Source of the DNA: Desulfobacteraceae bacterium Eth-SRB2
GTDB lineage: Bacteria > Desulfobacterota > Desulfobacteria > Desulfobacterales > UBA11574
NCBI GenBank assembly: GCA_004193595.1
Contig: RPGQ01000002.1
Coordinates: forward strand, 243,752 to 307,751
DNA: 64,000 nt
Reading direction: 5' to 3'
Position 1 is the stretch's first letter. The number at the start of each line of letters is the position of its first letter. The notes beneath the pieces are model-generated. The model was not told the DNA's origin. It ran no database searches and saw nothing but the letters and a program-made list of their open reading frames with translations. The position numbers were made by a program, and so were the translations under genes. This document shows positions 44,125 to 52,156 of this stretch, piece after piece.

Positions 44125-45003
44125 GTGAAACTTAAAGACGCACTGACAAGAAAGAAATTTGTTATTACTTCCGAAATCCAGGCACCCATGAAGGATGATA
44201 ATCCTGAAAACCTGGTTGAGGATCTGAAACGAATAAAAGGGCGCGTGGACGGTGTATCTGTAATGGAAGTGGAGCTTGAAGGGATTGTGGGAGACAGCAT
44301 TAAAACATGTGAAATCCTTCAGAATAACAGGTTTAACGCCATTTACCAGACCACAACCCGCGATAAAAATCGCATTCAGCTTCAAAAGGACCTTACAAAT
44401 GCCCATGAGACCGGCGTTGAAAATCTCCTTGTCTTTACAGAAGATTATCGAATCACCGGTGACAGCCTTCAAGAGACCATGTTCTTTCATGTGGATTCAG
44501 GTAAGCTGGCATCGGTACTCGATCATATAAAGGGAGGTCATTCCATTGATGGTAATACATTGGCTTCAAACATCGAATTTGTCCTCGGATCGGGCGTGGA
44601 GACCCCCTGGGGTAAAAATGTTCCGAAAAAGGGCATGCAGGAGATGGAAACCATGGGAAATATGGGGACCCAATATTTTCTCACGACTCCCATTTTCGAC
44701 CTCGATCAGTTTGAAAGGTTTATCAAGCAGGTGAAACCCTTTCAGATACCCGTAATCGCAGAAGTGATGATCTTAAGAACCGCCGGAATGGCCAGGTTCA
44801 TCAACCGTCACTTCAAATCAGGGCTGGTACCTGACGGGGTCATTAAGAAACTGTCGGGGTCTTGGGACTTGGAAAGGGCAAGCATTGATCTTTTTGCCGA
44901 TACGGTAAAGGGCCTGAAGGATCTTTGCCAGGGGGTTCACATCATTACATTCGGAGGAGTGGACAAACTGAAACTGTACATGGATGCAGCCAAGCTTAAA
45001 TAG
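44125..45003 (+). CDS. Methylenetetrahydrofolate reductase-like protein (MetF paralogue)
   Basis: 292 aa starting at GTG 44125 after AAAGGAGGCAAACT. Same TIM-barrel family as the MetF at 51215: FVITSEIQAPMKDDN at strand 1, TTTRDKNRIQLQKDL in place of CRDRNRLAI, VENLLVFTEDY in place of IRNMLCLSGDH, and a C-terminal IPVIAEVMILRTAGMARFI in place of ILAGVTPMKSTRMAQYM. GD at the flavin/folate loop is replaced by TED, so activity may differ. It follows the HTH-REC gene by 39 bp. Confidence 0.8.
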   Translation: MKLKDALTRKKFVITSEIQAPMKDDNPENLVEDLKRIKGRVDGVSVMEVELEGIVGDSIKTCEILQNNRFNAIYQTTTRDKNRIQLQKDLTNAHETGVENLLVFTEDYRITGDSLQETMFFHVDSGKLASVLDHIKGGHSIDGNTLASNIEFVLGSGVETPWGKNVPKKGMQEMETMGNMGTQYFLTTPIFDLDQFERFIKQVKPFQIPVIAEVMILRTAGMARFINRHFKSGLVPDGVIKKLSGSWDLERASIDLFADTVKGLKDLCQGVHIITFGGVDKLKLYMDAAKLK

Positions 45004-45247: not shown

Positions 45248-45460
45248 GTCTCGGAAATTCTACAATTTATTGAAAATAAAGCTCTTTTTTAGAATTATAT
45301 TTTTAACTCGGTCATGGAATAATGGAATATTGGAATGCCGGAATATTGGGGATAAAAGCGGAAATAAACCATTTTAATTGTAAAAAACTCCTTCAAACCC
45401 ATCATTCCATTACTCCATCATTCCATTATTCCAATTGGGGCAAAGCCCCTAAATTTTCCT
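45248..45460. repeat. Dispersed repeat, type F
   Basis: GGAAATTCTACAATTTATTG, GGAATAATGGAATATTGGAATG and CATTCCATTATTCCAATTGGGGCAAAGCCCC, with the same order as 10285-10510. Sits in the long leader between the MetF paralogue and hdrCB. Confidence 0.8.
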
Positions 45461-45524: not shown

Positions 45525-46811
45525 ATGACATCACCGATCGAATTGGATGAACTATATTGTGATTTTAAGGAGAGTGTTCAGGCAAGTATTCCCGAGGCCA
45601 ATCTGGATTTGTGCCTGACCTGCGGGGCTTGCACGGGAGGATGCCCCGCATCGGAGCTATTGGACATGGATCCGAGGAAGCTTGTGAGAATGGTGTTGCT
45701 GGGGATGGATGATGAAGTCAGGAAAACACCATGGGCATGGGTATGTACCATGTGTGCCAGGTGTTTCAAAGCATGCCCGATGAAAATCAATATTCCAAAA
45801 CTTGTCTATAGTGTGAGAAGATCATGGCCCAGGGACAAAGCTCCCAAAGGTATCAGAGGGTCCTGCGATCAGCATATCCGGGCGGGAAATGCCATGGGGG
45901 TTCCTTCCAAGGACTTTATATGGGTCGTGGAGGATGTTGCCGAAGAGATACAGGAAAACGATCCCAAGTTCAAGGATCTTAAGGTCACTGTAGACCGGAA
46001 GGGAGCCCACCTCGTCATTAATCAGAATTCGCGCGAACCGGTGACGGAGCCGGACGAGTTGGGACCGTTATGGAAGATACTTCACATGGTTGAAGCCGAT
46101 TGGACCTACCCGTCGGTCATGTGGGCAGGGGAAAATTACTGCCTGTTTCTTGCCGATGAGGAGGGATGGAAGTATATTCTTGAAGAGTTCGTCTACCATA
46201 TCGACAACAACCTTGGTGCAAAGGTTGTTGTCAATACCGAATGAGGGCATTCATTCTTTGCAATCCTGGAAGGATTGAAAAAATTCAATATACCTCACAA
46301 CTTCGAATTTACAAGTATCATCACCCTGTATGCACAGTGGATAAGAGAAGGAAAACTGAAGGTAAATTCCGACTGGAACAGGGACCTTAAAATTAAATTC
46401 ACCCTACAGGACCCCTGTAACATCGTCAGAAAAACCTGGGGAGAACTGATGGCCGACGATCTGCGGTTTGTGATTAAAACAATTGTCGGAGAGGAAAATT
46501 TTGTGGACATGATCCCCTGCGGAACGAACAATTTCTGCTGCGGCGGCGGCGGCGGTGCATTGCAGGCGGGACTGCCCGAACAGCGGCGGGCATACGGCAA
46601 GGTTAAATTTGACCAGATCATAAAAACAGGGGCAAATTATGTGTTCGCGCCATGCCACAACTGCCATGGTCAGATGGAAGATATCGGTGAATTTTACGGC
46701 GGCAATTACCATGTCGTACATATTTGGACCATAATGTGCCTGGCCATGGGGGTGTTGGGGGAAAACGAAAGGGCTTACCTCGGGCCGGACCTTGCAAAGG
46801 TCGGGCTTTAG
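45525..46811 (+). CDS. hdrCB: HdrC-HdrB fusion, selenocysteine-containing (UGA at 46242)
   Basis: 428 aa when UGA 46242-46244 is read as Sec (residue 240); the ORF track splits it at that codon. ATG 45525 follows AAAGGAGGTCAATGAG. HdrC part: two 4Fe-4S motifs, CLTCGACTGGCPAS (30-43) and CTMCARCFKACPM (74-86). HdrB part: one CCG domain with NTE-U-GHSFFAILEG (Sec in the first Cys place), DPCN (298), CGTNNFCCGGGGG (332-343) and CHNC (377-380), which bind the non-cubane cluster. Reduces a disulfide or passes electrons within the Hdr complex. Followed by hdrA; a palindromic repeat supplies its stop codon. Confidence 0.88.
46242..46284 (+). promoter_or_regulatory. Bacterial SECIS-like hairpin after the hdrCB UGA
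   Basis: UGA, then TTTG-CAATCC-TGGAA-GGATTG-AAAA with the loop beginning 22 nt after the UGA. Outer TTT/AAA bases extend the stem past a G-A mismatch. Loop GG bases and distance agree with the usual bacterial SECIS arrangement read by SelB. Confidence 0.7.
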
Positions 46812-46970
46812 GGTTCACGAAGAAATAAGTTCGCAATCTTTAGGCGTTGAAGCGCCCGGCCGGCAAGGCGCGAAAGCGCAGGAATATCTGGATATTCCGA
46901 GTTTTCGCAACGCAGCCAGGCGGGATGCATCGGCGCATAAAATGTGAAGTTATTTCTGAGTGAGCCCTTA
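46807..46970. repeat. MITE-like palindromic repeat, type D, inside the hdr cluster
   Basis: TTTAGGGTTCACGAAGAAATAAGTTCGCA on the left and inverted TGTGAAGTTATTTCTGAGTGAGCCCTTA on the right. The hdrCB TAG stop (46809-46811) lies in the left end. A sister copy is at 55991-56191. Confidence 0.8.
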
Positions 46971-47044: not shown

Positions 47045-50000
47045 ATGTCAAAACAAGCCATAGGTTCTGTTCTGGTCGTTGGAGGCGGAATTGCGGGAAT
47101 CCAGGCATCTTTGGACCTGGCTGATTCAGGCTACCTCGTCTATCTGGTTGAAAAAAATTCGGCCATCGGTGGCGTCATGTCACAATTGGACAAAACTTTT
47201 CCAACCAATGACTGTTCCATGTGCATCATATCACCAAAACTGGTCGAGGTCGGCCGGCATCTTAACATTGAGTTACTAACCTTGTCAGAAGTGCAAAGCA
47301 TCTCCGGGGAACAAGGAAATTTTGAAATCAAACTCACGCAGCATCCCCGATATGTTGACGTGGATAAATGCATTGCCTGTGGTATTTGTGCTGAAAAGTG
47401 CCCTAAAAAAGTCTTAAATGAATACGACGCCGGTCTTGGCAAACGCAAGTCTATCTATCTGAAATACGCACAGGCGGTCCCATTAAAGTACGCTATTGAT
47501 GAAAATTGTATCTATTTTAAAAAGGGGAAATGCAAAGCCTGTGAGAAATTCTGCCCTTCCGATGCAATTAATTTTGATGACAAACAAAAAGAGTTAACTA
47601 TAAATGCAGGTGCGATACTTATAGCTCCCGGCAGTGCTGTGTATGATCCTTCCGTATATGATACTTATGGCTACAAACAATCTCCCAATATAGTCACAAG
47701 CCTGGAATTTGAGCGAATACTTGCTGCAACGGGACCTTTTGCCGGTGATTTAGTCAGGCCTTCGGACAAAAAGGCACCGGCCAAAATAGCCTGGTTGCAA
47801 TGTGTAGGGTCAAGGGACATAAATACCTGTGACAACAGCTACTGTTCGTCGGTCTGCTGCATGTATGCCAATAAACAGGCGGTGATAGCCAAAGAGCACT
47901 GTGACGATCCTTTGGACACCGCGATTTTTTTCATGGACCTGCGAACCTATGGTAAGGATTTTGACAAGTATAATCTGAGGGCTCAGGAAGACCATGGCGT
48001 CCGTTTTATCCGATCGAGGATCCACTCGGTTTTCCCTGATGATGATGACAAGCTCCGTATCGTATATGCTACTGAATCAGGAAAAAGAGCAGAGGAGAGA
48101 TTTGACATGGTTGTCCTTTCCGTGGGGCTTTCTCCGGGTAAAGATGTGGCGGGGCTTGCTGAAAAGATGGGGGTGGAACTTAACAACCACGGATTTGCCA
48201 GAACAAGCTGCCTTTCTCCGGTAAGCACCAACAGGGAAGGCATTTTCGTTTGCGGAACTTTTCAAGAGCCAAAGGATATACCGCATACGGTAATGGAGGC
48301 TTCCGCCTCTGCGGCAGCCGCAACCGGCAACCTTTCCCATGCCAGGTGGTCTCTTACCCGCGTAAAGGAAATGCCCCCCGAAGAGAATGTGACCGGACAG
48401 AAACCGAGGATTGGCGTATTCGTGTGTAACTGTGGAATCAATATCGGCGGAGTGGCGGACGTCCCGGCAATACGGGATTATGCCAGGGATCTGACCCATG
48501 TGATCCATGTGGAGGATAATCTGTTTACATGCTCCCAGGACAATCAGGACCACATCAAGCAAATAATACGGGAAAAAGGTATCAACAGGGTGGTTGTGGC
48601 GTCATGCTCACCGCGCACCCACGAGCCGTTGTTTCAAGAAACTATCCGTGATGCCGGCTTGAACAAATACCTTTTTGAAATGGCCAATATTCGGGACCAC
48701 AACACCTGGGTTCACATGGACAATCCGGAAAAAGCCACCGAAAAGGCCAAGGATTTGGTTCGCATGGCGGTTGCCAAGGCAGCTTATAGTGAACCGCTCC
48801 ATCAGGTCTCTTTAAAGATAAGCAAAGCCGCCCTTGTAATCGGCGGCGGAGTCTCGGGCATGGAAGCCGCCGTTGGAATCGCAGACCAGGGGCGCCCGGT
48901 TTACCTGGTGGAAAAATCCATAGAACTTGGGGGAAACGCCAAGTTTCTCGGGACGACATGGCAGGGAGAACAGATCGGACCCTATCTTGAAGATCTTGTG
49001 AACCGTGTGAAAAATCACCCCGACATCGAGCTGTTCATGCAGACAAAGGTAACCGGGACCACAGGAACCATGGGTAATTTTTCCACAACACTCACCTCTC
49101 TGAACGGAGAGGGCAAGGAAATTAAAATCGATCACGCGGTAACCGTCCTTGCCACAGGGGGAAGAGAGAAAGTCCCGGAGCAATATCTTTATGGGGAGCA
49201 TCCCCATGTGATGACCCAGCTGGACATGGACCGAGCGTTTAGTGAAAGCGATGAACGACTTTCAGGGACAAAAAGCGTTGTTTTTATTCAGTGTGTAGGA
49301 TCCAGAATACCCGAAAGGCCATACTGCAGCAAAATTTGCTGCACACACAGTCTGAAAAGCGCCCTGCTCCTTAAAAATAAGAATCCGAAAATGAAGGTTT
49401 ACATTGTCTACAGAGATATCCGTTCCTACGGATTCAGAGAAGAGCTGTATGTACAGGCAAGGGAGGCCGGAGTGATATTTATCCGCTACAATCTGAAGAA
49501 TTTGCCCAAGGTTGAATCCCTGGAAGACGATCATCTTTCGGTGACGGTTACGGATCATGTTCTCGGCATGCCGGTACGTCTTAAGCCGGATCTTCTGGTA
49601 CTTGCATCCGGGATTGTACCCAACGCCAACACGGCATTGTTTGAATTTTTCAAGGTTCCGGTAAACAGTGAGGGATTCCTAATTGAAGCTCACGCGAAAC
49701 TCCGTCCCGTGGATTTTTCATCAGAGGGAATCTTTTTGGCCGGCCTTGCGCATTATCCCAAACCCATAGAAGAAAGTATCGCCCAGGCAAAGGCTGCCGC
49801 CTCAAGGGCGATGACCATTCTTGCAAAGGAAGAGATCATGGTGGGTGGCGTTGTCGCATCAGTTGAGGACGCAAGATGTGCCGCCTGTCTCACCTGTGTC
49901 AGAACGTGCCCATACGGAATACCCAAAATCAATGAAGATTCCCATGCGGTTATTGATTCGGCGGAATGTCACGGCTGCGGAATGTGTGTGTCTGAATGCC

Positions 50001-50083
50001 CTGGAAAGGCAATATCACTACAGCATTTCACCGACGAACAGCTTTTGGCAAAAACAAGCGCACTTTTTACTTCCGGAGGATAA
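47045..50083 (+). CDS. hdrA: Heterodisulfide reductase subunit A, double-length form
   Basis: 1012 aa, ribosome site AAAGGAGGACGTAATA. FAD- and Fe-S-containing subunit that splits electrons in Hdr complexes. Module 1: VLVVGGGIAGIQAS (about 9-22), NDCSMC (55-60), ferredoxin-type CIACGICAEKCPKK (109-122), second cluster set CKACEKFCPSDA (163-174) and CVGSRD...YCSSVCC. Module 2 repeats the Rossmann and CVGSR patterns from about 595: LVIGGGVSGMEAA, QCVGSRIPERPYCSKICC. The C-terminal ferredoxin has CAACLTCVRTCPYG and CHGCGMCVSECPG (about 945-990). About 1000 aa is the duplicated HdrA form. mvhD follows after 3 bp. Confidence 0.95.
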   Translation: MSKQAIGSVLVVGGGIAGIQASLDLADSGYLVYLVEKNSAIGGVMSQLDKTFPTNDCSMCIISPKLVEVGRHLNIELLTLSEVQSISGEQGNFEIKLTQHPRYVDVDKCIACGICAEKCPKKVLNEYDAGLGKRKSIYLKYAQAVPLKYAIDENCIYFKKGKCKACEKFCPSDAINFDDKQKELTINAGAILIAPGSAVYDPSVYDTYGYKQSPNIVTSLEFERILAATGPFAGDLVRPSDKKAPAKIAWLQCVGSRDINTCDNSYCSSVCCMYANKQAVIAKEHCDDPLDTAIFFMDLRTYGKDFDKYNLRAQEDHGVRFIRSRIHSVFPDDDDKLRIVYATESGKRAEERFDMVVLSVGLSPGKDVAGLAEKMGVELNNHGFARTSCLSPVSTNREGIFVCGTFQEPKDIPHTVMEASASAAAATGNLSHARWSLTRVKEMPPEENVTGQKPRIGVFVCNCGINIGGVADVPAIRDYARDLTHVIHVEDNLFTCSQDNQDHIKQIIREKGINRVVVASCSPRTHEPLFQETIRDAGLNKYLFEMANIRDHNTWVHMDNPEKATEKAKDLVRMAVAKAAYSEPLHQVSLKISKAALVIGGGVSGMEAAVGIADQGRPVYLVEKSIELGGNAKFLGTTWQGEQIGPYLEDLVNRVKNHPDIELFMQTKVTGTTGTMGNFSTTLTSLNGEGKEIKIDHAVTVLATGGREKVPEQYLYGEHPHVMTQLDMDRAFSESDERLSGTKSVVFIQCVGSRIPERPYCSKICCTHSLKSALLLKNKNPKMKVYIVYRDIRSYGFREELYVQAREAGVIFIRYNLKNLPKVESLEDDHLSVTVTDHVLGMPVRLKPDLLVLASGIVPNANTALFEFFKVPVNSEGFLIEAHAKLRPVDFSSEGIFLAGLAHYPKPIEESIAQAKAAASRAMTILAKEEIMVGGVVASVEDARCAACLTCVRTCPYGIPKINEDSHAVIDSAECHGCGMCVSECPGKAISLQHFTDEQLLAKTSALFTSGG

Positions 50084-50086
50084 AAA

Positions 50087-50521
50087 ATGAACGAAACATT
50101 TGAACCACAGATTGTTGCTTACTGTTGCAATTACTGTGCTTATGCAGCCGCGGATCTGGCGGGTTCCATGCGCCTTTCCTATCCTTCCAACGTCAAGGTG
50201 ATTCAGGTACCCTGCACCGGTCGAGTGGACATTCTTTATCTCCTGAGGGCCATAGAGGATGGCGCCGACGGAATTTATGTGGCCGGGTGACTGGAAGGAG
50301 AATGCCATTTCCTGGAAGGAAATGTTAAAACAAGAAAAAAAGTGGAATATGTTCAAAGAATTCTGGAAGAGCTGGGTATTGAACCGGCCCGGGTAAGGAT
50401 GTTCAACCTCTCCTCGGCCATGGGACTACGGTTTGCCGAAATTGCCAGAGAAATGACCAGGGAAATTAGAGAGCTCGGACCGAGTCCGGTTCAACCCTAT
50501 CCAAAAGCAGCTCAAAATTAA
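50087..50521 (+). CDS. mvhD: MvhD-type hydrogenase delta / electron-transfer subunit, selenoprotein
   Basis: 144 aa when UGA 50288-50290 is read as Sec (residue 68); the ORF track stops there. Start ATG 50087 with GGAGGATAAAAA. VAYCCNYCAYAAADLAG and IQVPCTGRVD are family Cys motifs, and YVAG-U-LEGECHFLEGN is the place where VhuD/MvhD proteins have Cys or Sec. The frame then continues RKKVEYVQRILEELGI and FNLSSAMG to TAA 50519-50521. MvhD carries a 2Fe-2S cluster and passes electrons to HdrA. Order hdrCB-hdrA-mvhD-metV-metF fits one complex. Confidence 0.9.
50288..50326 (+). promoter_or_regulatory. Bacterial SECIS-like hairpin after the mvhD UGA
   Basis: CATTTCC-TGGAA-GGAAATG (50306-50324), the loop beginning 22 nt after UGA, exactly as in hdrCB. 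Both share CCTGGAAGG at the top, but the lower stems differ and each remains paired. Confidence 0.72.
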
Positions 50522-50549: not shown

Positions 50550-51218
50550 ATGATAGTCGCAGATCGAAAATCTCTGGATGAGATACAGGAGATGATAAAA
50601 GATTACAAAAAAATTCTTCTGGTAGGGTGCAAGGGCTGTGTGACCGTCTGTAATGTCGGCGGGATGAAGGAGGTGCAGGTTCTATCTTCTATCCTGAAAA
50701 TTGCACGAAAGAAGGAGGGCAGAGAACTGCAGGTAGAGGAGAGAACCATAGAGCGTCAGTGCGATTTTGAATATGTGGAACAGCTCAGGGCCGACTGTGA
50801 CAGGTTTGACGCCATCCTGTCTATGGCCTGCGGAGTGGGACCCCAGTTCCTTGCGGAAGCCTTCCCATCACAAAAAATTTATCCCGCACTCGATACGAAA
50901 TTTTTCGGAGGTGCGGTGCAGCACGGGATCTGGGAGGAGCGCTGTGCAGGATGCGGCACGTGCGTAATACATTTTTATGACAGTTTGTGCCCCATTGCCC
51001 GGTGTGCCAAGAGCCTGCAGCATGGGCCCTGCGGCGGAAGCGCAAACGGCAAATGCGAGATTTCAGAAGACGTCGATTGTATCTGGGACATCATTGTCAG
51101 AAAAAAAATGGAACAAGAGCGCCTGGAGGACCTTAGAACCTACAGGGCCTTCAAAGACTGGCGCTCGGCACGAGACGGCGGCCCCAGAAAAAGTATAAGG
51201 GAGGAATTGGTGCAATGA
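50550..51218 (+). CDS. metV: MetV, zinc/Fe-S partner of methylene-THF reductase
   Basis: 222 aa, AAGAGGTGAACC before ATG 50550. Cys pattern: LLVGCKGCVTVCNVGG near the N-terminus, then CAGCGTCVIHFYDSLCPIARCAKSLQHGPCGG and NGKCEI near the C-terminus. This is the MetV/MTHFR-C-terminal family pattern; MetV coordinates Fe-S clusters and binds MetF in acetogens. Its stop overlaps the metF start by four bases (ATGA), so the two are translationally coupled. Confidence 0.9.
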   Translation: MIVADRKSLDEIQEMIKDYKKILLVGCKGCVTVCNVGGMKEVQVLSSILKIARKKEGRELQVEERTIERQCDFEYVEQLRADCDRFDAILSMACGVGPQFLAEAFPSQKIYPALDTKFFGGAVQHGIWEERCAGCGTCVIHFYDSLCPIARCAKSLQHGPCGGSANGKCEISEDVDCIWDIIVRKKMEQERLEDLRTYRAFKDWRSARDGGPRKSIREELVQ

Positions 51219-52156
51219 GCGATAACGGATTGAAATCGGGAAGTAATCTGGAAAAGATTTTAAAGGCAGGTCATTTTGCTTTTACAGGTGAATGCGGTCC
51301 GCCCAAGGGAGCTAATGTAGAGCATTTGAAGGAAAAGTTCGAGCATCTTAGAGGCATTGTCGATGCCGTAAACATAACCGATAACCAGACCGCCGTTGTG
51401 AGGATGTCCAGTACTGCGGCGTCGGCAATCATGGTTGCCCAAGGTCTTGAACCCAATTTTCAGATGGTTTGCAGGGATCGGAACCGCCTGGCTATAATGG
51501 CGGATATTCTGGGAGCATACTCTCTGGGTATCCGTAACATGCTGTGTCTTTCAGGTGACCACCAGCAATTCGGCAACCATCCTGAAGCAAAAAACGTCTT
51601 CGATATAGATTCCATGCAGCTCATCGCCCTGGTCAAGATGATGCGGGATGAGGGCACGTTTATGAACGGCGAAGATATTGATGTTCCGCCGAAACTTTTC
51701 ATCGGCGCGGCCAGCAACCCGTTTGCCGATCCTTATGAATTCCGGATTTACAGGCTTGCCAACAAGATAGACGCGGGAGCTGATTTTATCCAGACCCAGT
51801 GTATCTATAACATGGAAAGGTTCAGGGACTTTATGAAAAGGGCTGTGGATATGGGGCTGGCGGAGAAAGCATACATCCTTGCCGGTGTAACTCCCATGAA
51901 ATCGACACGCATGGCACAGTATATGGCTAAAAAGGTCCCCGGGATAGATGTGCCCGAATCCCTTATCAAGCGTCTGAAGGGGGCCGTCAACGGAAAACAG
52001 GCTGAAGAGGGGATCAGATTTGCCATTGAACAGATCGAGGAGTTCAAAGAGATGGAGGGGCTTGCCGGAGTTCATCTCATGGCCATTGAATGGGAGCACA
52101 AGGTACCGGAAATCGCTGAAAGGGCCAACATGTTACCCCGTCCCAAGATTGATTAA
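51215..52156 (+). CDS. metF: Methylenetetrahydrofolate reductase
   Basis: 313 aa, FMN/FAD TIM barrel that reduces methylene-THF to methyl-THF in the methyl branch of the Wood-Ljungdahl pathway. FTGECGPPKGANVEHL at strand 1, NITDNQTAVVRMSS, MVCRDRNRLAIMADILGA, IRNMLCLSGDH (flavin/folate loop), FIQTQCIYN and ILAGVTPMKSTRMAQYM all match the family. The last gene of the cluster; a type C repeat starts 2 bp after the stop. Confidence 0.95.
   Translation: MSDNGLKSGSNLEKILKAGHFAFTGECGPPKGANVEHLKEKFEHLRGIVDAVNITDNQTAVVRMSSTAASAIMVAQGLEPNFQMVCRDRNRLAIMADILGAYSLGIRNMLCLSGDHQQFGNHPEAKNVFDIDSMQLIALVKMMRDEGTFMNGEDIDVPPKLFIGAASNPFADPYEFRIYRLANKIDAGADFIQTQCIYNMERFRDFMKRAVDMGLAEKAYILAGVTPMKSTRMAQYMAKKVPGIDVPESLIKRLKGAVNGKQAEEGIRFAIEQIEEFKEMEGLAGVHLMAIEWEHKVPEIAERANMLPRPKID

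Follow-up and report, generated by a model that had tools for sequence, protein, structure and literature searches.

An in-frame UGA codon in the electron-transfer gene hdrCB of the sulfate-reducing-type Desulfobacteraceae bacterium Eth-SRB2 is, by comparison with homologs, almost certainly a selenocysteine (Sec) codon. The sequence-only reading had proposed as much, and the proposal stands: the corresponding column in homologs holds only TGA or Cys codons, a hairpin behind the UGA is kept, and the genome has the sel genes. The joint statement, that codon 240 specifies Sec and that this Sec lies in the first CCG repeat of the protein, is very likely, the second half of it resting on alignment to a protein of solved structure.

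The hdrCB gene and its reading frame

Features of the window (the whole 64-kb stretch of DNA that was analysed) are collected in Table 1. The translation of hdrCB, from an ATG at 45525 picked for agreement with homologs, runs in frame through the TGA to a TAG at 46809-46811, confirming that an HdrC-HdrB fusion is split at this TGA. The interrupted codon is that of residue 240, the next residues are G-H-S, and the frame goes on as GHSFFAILEGLKKFN. Full-length homologs span the TGA at identities of up to 94%.

Table 1. Features in and around hdrCB (window coordinates)
Feature	Position	Strand	Remarks and evidence
Divergent second MetF homolog	44125..45003	+	Pfam MTHFR, 3.2e-17; adjoins hdrCB in relatives too
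hdrCB (HdrD-like) selenoprotein gene	45525..46811	+	428 codons plus TAG stop; translation, homologs
HdrC-type part of hdrCB	45612..45776	+	Two 4Fe-4S motifs; Pfam Fer4_8/Fer4_17
Cys206 codon	46140..46142	+	Homolog alignments
TGA codon 240, read as Sec	46242..46244	+	Cys/Sec column in 130 loci
His242 codon	46248..46250	+	Aligned with EtfD His583, sixth noncubane ligand (PMC13083937)
SECIS-like hairpin CAATCC-UGGAA-GGATTG	46261..46277	+	Covariation; loss in Cys versions
Complete second CCG domain	46416..46664	+	Predicted noncubane [4Fe-4S] site; Pfam, HdrB/EtfD alignment
hdrA	47045..50083	+	1012 aa, Sec-free
mvhD	50087..50521	+	FlpD/MvhD Pfam match, 4.4e-49; in-frame TGA 50288-50290
metV-like (MTHFR C-terminal domain protein)	50550..51218	+	Pfam PF12225, 4.1e-30
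metF (methylenetetrahydrofolate reductase)	51215..52156	+	Pfam MTHFR, 1.7e-41

The product fuses an HdrC dicluster domain to an HdrB part (Pfam Fer4_8 and CCG). In the HdrC-type part, which also matches HdrC in the PDB, the motifs C30-C33-C36-C40 and C74-C77-C80-C84 are invariant among 50 homologs. The HdrB part has a single Pfam CCG match (residues 293-384) rather than two complete CCG domains; this second CCG domain carries C298 (DPC), C338-C339 (CC), and C377 and C380 (CHNC). Cys206, invariant in the hdrCB family and replaced by Gly in DsrK, is the sole other Cys remaining in the first repeat. Residue 240 (Cys or Sec) and His242 are likewise invariant in the first alignment, of 50 full-length homologs. 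The protein falls below the cut-offs of both the HdrB equivalog model TIGR03288 (20 bits against 345) and the NCBIfam DsrK model (113.7 bits against 400), and a true DsrK is encoded elsewhere in the Eth-SRB2 genome.

Codon 240 is either UGA or Cys

Across 130 homologous loci, the codon 240 column holds TGA in 100, TGC in 26, TGT in 4, and no other codon, in answer to the question whether the column is Cys or Sec. A search of 292 genomes from the same order returned exactly one internal TGA in most of the matches listed, and none in the others. The U240-G241-H242 motif (UGH) is invariant in the Sec homologs of hdrCB. Cultured relatives with this gene include Desulfospira joergensenii, Desulfocicer vacuolatum and Desulfonema magnum; the residues around the Sec read NTEUGHS, or NTEUGHE in D. 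magnum. Well-supported tree branches require at least four changes between Sec and Cys at residue 240, and the exchange recurs among close homologs within this one order. Three more TGA-containing UGH paralogs occur in the Eth-SRB2 genome, two of them on contigs C50 and C74. L152, a TGA-bearing UGH protein of more remote kinship (WPEUGHAYLATRSGL), has no equivalent of C206.

A real stop at codon 240 (separating two genes or marking a pseudogene), or a misread TGC or TGT, would agree with the split made by mechanical ORF calling, and 7 of the 25 long ORFs of the window do use TGA as a stop. Such an explanation is nonetheless highly improbable. Coding constraint persists beyond the TGA, where differences fall mainly at the third codon position (for example 24/11/99 against L024). 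The same TGA is found in 84 distinct sequences, including one in complete genome NZ_CP061800.1, and a check for base error found it recurring across many separate assemblies, the complete chromosome of Desulfonema magnum among them. A matching hairpin, described below, accompanies the TGA versions and is lost in nearly all Cys versions.

The ordinary use of TGA to end other genes of the window also argues against a changed genetic code that would decode UGA as Trp or Gly. To this reading we give a negligible probability. No support for it was found, homologs in the 130 loci have Cys and never Trp or Gly, and tRNA-Sec and the hairpin are both present. On the comparative data we reject a true stop, a pseudogene, a base error and a changed code alike.

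The machinery for inserting Sec is encoded in the genome. The genes selB (383.6 bits), selA (606.7) and selD (379.7) all score above curated cut-offs, and a pair of tRNA-Sec genes, both with anticodon UCA, completes the set whose absence would have told against Sec. These tRNA-Sec genes (L010 and L011) differ from each other within one assembly; the second, found where a small contig begins, may be a contaminant (contamination is estimated at 2.6%). The selD gene (L018) is itself interrupted by a TGA in frame and probably encodes a selenoprotein too.

A hairpin that follows the Sec codon

The SECIS-like hairpin pointed out after the UGA (arms 46261-46266 and 46272-46277, loop UGGAA at 46267-46271) begins 16 nt 3' of the UGA and has a stem of 6 bp. 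All six pairs form in 81 of the 84 distinct TGA sequences, by Watson-Crick pairing alone in 59, and the stem changes in a compensating manner, from CAATCC/GGATTG to CAGTCC/GGACTG, or to CATTCC/GGAATG in L146. It can be paired in only 2 of 26 distinct Cys sequences, both with G-U pairs, and in none of the 26 by Watson-Crick pairs alone. These counts are inflated by kinship of the sequences, although the tree still has four or more switches of the Sec/Cys label. When the window peptide was recoded at random with synonymous codons, 0.5% of trials yielded six Watson-Crick pairs. Folding energy of the region is unremarkable (z = -0.9) and does not single out the hairpin, so the evidence for it is covariation together with loss in Cys versions. 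Rfam at gathering thresholds gave zero matches across the window.

Residue 240 and the cluster sites of EtfD

The best fold match in the PDB to an AF2 model of the hdrCB product (mean pLDDT 83.8, pTM 0.86) is EtfD (E 9.6e-10, TM 0.67 by query), followed by HdrB. In EtfD, a linear [3Fe-4S] cluster (D1) has ligands Cys503, 538, 581 and 584, while a noncubane [4Fe-4S] cluster (D2) has Cys637, 672, 673, 709 and 712, with His583 completing the set (PMC13083937). A HMMER alignment of the family profile to 9ojn_A (weak, E 8.5e-4) places U240-G-H242-S243 against C581-P-H583-C584. This register is clearer than that to HdrB, though weak in score; the hmmsearch alignment to HdrB begins exactly at U240 and pairs it with Cys81, not Cys78, which leaves the HdrB register uncertain. 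Since U240 aligns with EtfD C581, Sec240 very probably belongs to the first CCG repeat, from which most cluster ligands have been stripped.

That placement revises part of the sequence-only reading, which took Sec for the first Cys of the CCG domain having the DPC, CC and CHNC motifs and suggested it as a ligand of the HdrB noncubane cluster. That domain has C298 for its first Cys and supplies five Cys (298, 338, 339, 377 and 380) to its own site; the counterpart of Sec240, Cys581, comes from the other, first CCG site. By alignment to EtfD, the hdrCB product retains all five D2 Cys plus the His, which lies just two residues beyond Sec240, while of the D1 set only U240 and perhaps C206 are left, with S243 in place of Cys584.

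Could Sec240 still ligate a cluster, either the noncubane cluster or an unusual one in the first CCG site? The aligned EtfD Cys581 does ligate D1 (PMC13083937), and residue 240 is strictly Cys or Sec in the 130 loci. We consider this unlikely, as most other D1 ligands are lost, with C206 alone left in the repeat, and the noncubane site is already supplied with five Cys and a conserved His. At the Sec column, the DsrK encoded by Eth-SRB2 reads CGH. C206 is absent both from DsrK and from the UGH paralog L152, so that a Sec-Cys pair is not general to UGH proteins.

Gene neighborhood

The gene order hdrCB-hdrA-mvhD-metV-metF is found in the window and in relatives, as is the neighborhood 5' of hdrCB, where a response regulator accompanies the divergent MetF homolog. 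A paralogous cluster, ordered hdrA-mvhD-metV-metF-hdrCB, lies on contig C55 of the same genome. From this neighborhood we infer an HdrA-centered electron-transfer complex with MetF. The hdrA of the window lacks the NAD(P)-binding (glutamate-synthase-like) insert of about 460 aa found in the same gene of the relatives compared. One such relative (L072, 7521-11864) has hdrA at the same place with the insert present, and is 89% identical to the window hdrA after the insert and 68% before it. The genome paper of Desulfobacterium autotrophicum (PMC2702500) describes its HdrL as an insert-bearing fusion of this kind.

The mvhD gene is the second selenoprotein gene of the cluster, its TGA being codon 68, and the hairpin after its UGA has the same CC-UGGAA-GG apex as that of hdrCB. 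Homologs of mvhD have TGA at codon 68 or at another Cys position. In the syntenic mvhD of relatives (69-77% identity), codon 68 specifies Cys and it is codon 17 that is TGA. On this comparison, the Sec of mvhD has moved between two Cys positions.

Between hdrCB and hdrA lies a repeat of about 146 bp (46820-46965). The genome holds 14 copies of nearly full length, 77-100% identical, and one of these follows the paralogous hdrCB of C55 by about 1 kb. On the 5' side of hdrCB, the region 45315-45433 has an imperfect 36-nt inverted repeat of the GGAATATTGGAAT type.

A proposed role for Sec240

Sequence comparison establishes the Sec codon, the hairpin, the Cys/Sec exchange, the alignment to EtfD and the gene cluster. 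The mechanism that we propose goes further. Sec240 would be decoded by SelB and tRNA-Sec(UCA), guided by the hairpin that lies 16 nt further on. Two [4Fe-4S] clusters of the hdrCB product would be of the ferredoxin type, and a third [4Fe-4S] cluster, of the noncubane type, would be bound by C298, C338, C339, C377, C380 and probably H242. Sec240, with C206, would be the remnant of the first CCG cluster site. Presumably close to the noncubane cluster, it may react with a partner disulfide or thiol, or else tune electron entry. The product may form a complex with HdrA, MvhD, MetV and MetF, in which the MetF step would be the interconversion of methylene- and methyl-tetrahydrofolate.

That Sec240 is a redox-active selenol(ate) beside the predicted noncubane cluster seems to us about an even chance. 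We put forward only tentatively, as a possibility on the doubtful side, the conversion of one cluster site in the HdrB/EtfD fold into a cluster-free Sec240 (plus Cys206) redox center adjoining the noncubane [4Fe-4S] cluster. Selenol and cluster together would then let a partner disulfide or thiol react in two one-electron steps. Ferredoxin:thioredoxin reductase carries out comparable chemistry with a cubane cluster and a disulfide.

Residue 240, as Sec or Cys, might instead have no direct catalytic part and chiefly shield the cluster from oxidation or ease its repair. Cys can evidently serve, as the repeated exchange in close homologs of the same order shows; Sec/Cys exchange, however, is common for catalytic Sec as well, and Ser, Ala and Gly are never seen at residue 240 in the 130 loci. 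We regard a purely protective residue as distinctly unlikely.

Relation to known selenoproteins

The hdrCB product is a further member of an already known selenoprotein family, because two earlier accounts precede it. The 2009 genome paper of Desulfobacterium autotrophicum HRM2 names HdrD4 among its selenoproteins; like the hdrCB product, HdrD4 is reported as soluble, with domains homologous to HdrC and HdrB, and as containing Sec (PMC2702500). A 2026 review includes in its listing, with credit to Kryukov and Gladyshev 2004, a selenoprotein called "Fe-S oxidoreductase-like" whose Sec motif is UGH (PTHR43551/COG0247 GlpC; PMC13188914). Going by the description there, it has the same UGH and one Sec and comes from Deltaproteobacteria, for which the review notes a four-selenoprotein cluster with hdrA and frhD; it is also clustered with hdrA and frhD/mvhD selenoprotein genes. 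Set against what that listing gives, the Eth-SRB2 cluster has metV-metF added, and its hdrA is Sec-free.

The closest solved fold is EtfD of Mycobacterium smegmatis (PDB 9ojn; PMC13083937), which has a C-x-H motif at the same place and shares the five noncubane Cys. EtfD is membrane-bound and has its full linear [3Fe-4S] site, whereas in the hdrCB product that site is stripped and one Cys has become Sec. DsrK shares the HdrD-like layout but has Cys for Sec and does without C206. Methanogen HdrB/HdrC (PDB 5odc) shares the HdrC ferredoxin part and the second CCG domain; its first CCG domain is complete, while that of the hdrCB product, one fused chain, is not.

What this analysis adds is the alignment to the EtfD cluster ligands and the tracking of Sec and Cys by presence and absence of the hairpin. 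An earlier report of either did not turn up in the literature searched, and may exist. Ordinary annotation will split or truncate hdrCB, and the function of the family's Sec has been left open in the catalogue. The alignment to EtfD gives this Sec a concrete place, in the stripped first site beside the predicted noncubane cluster. With at least four exchanges, the natural Sec/Cys pairs of a single order are ready comparisons for the contribution of selenium to an Hdr-type complex that would be tied to MetF.
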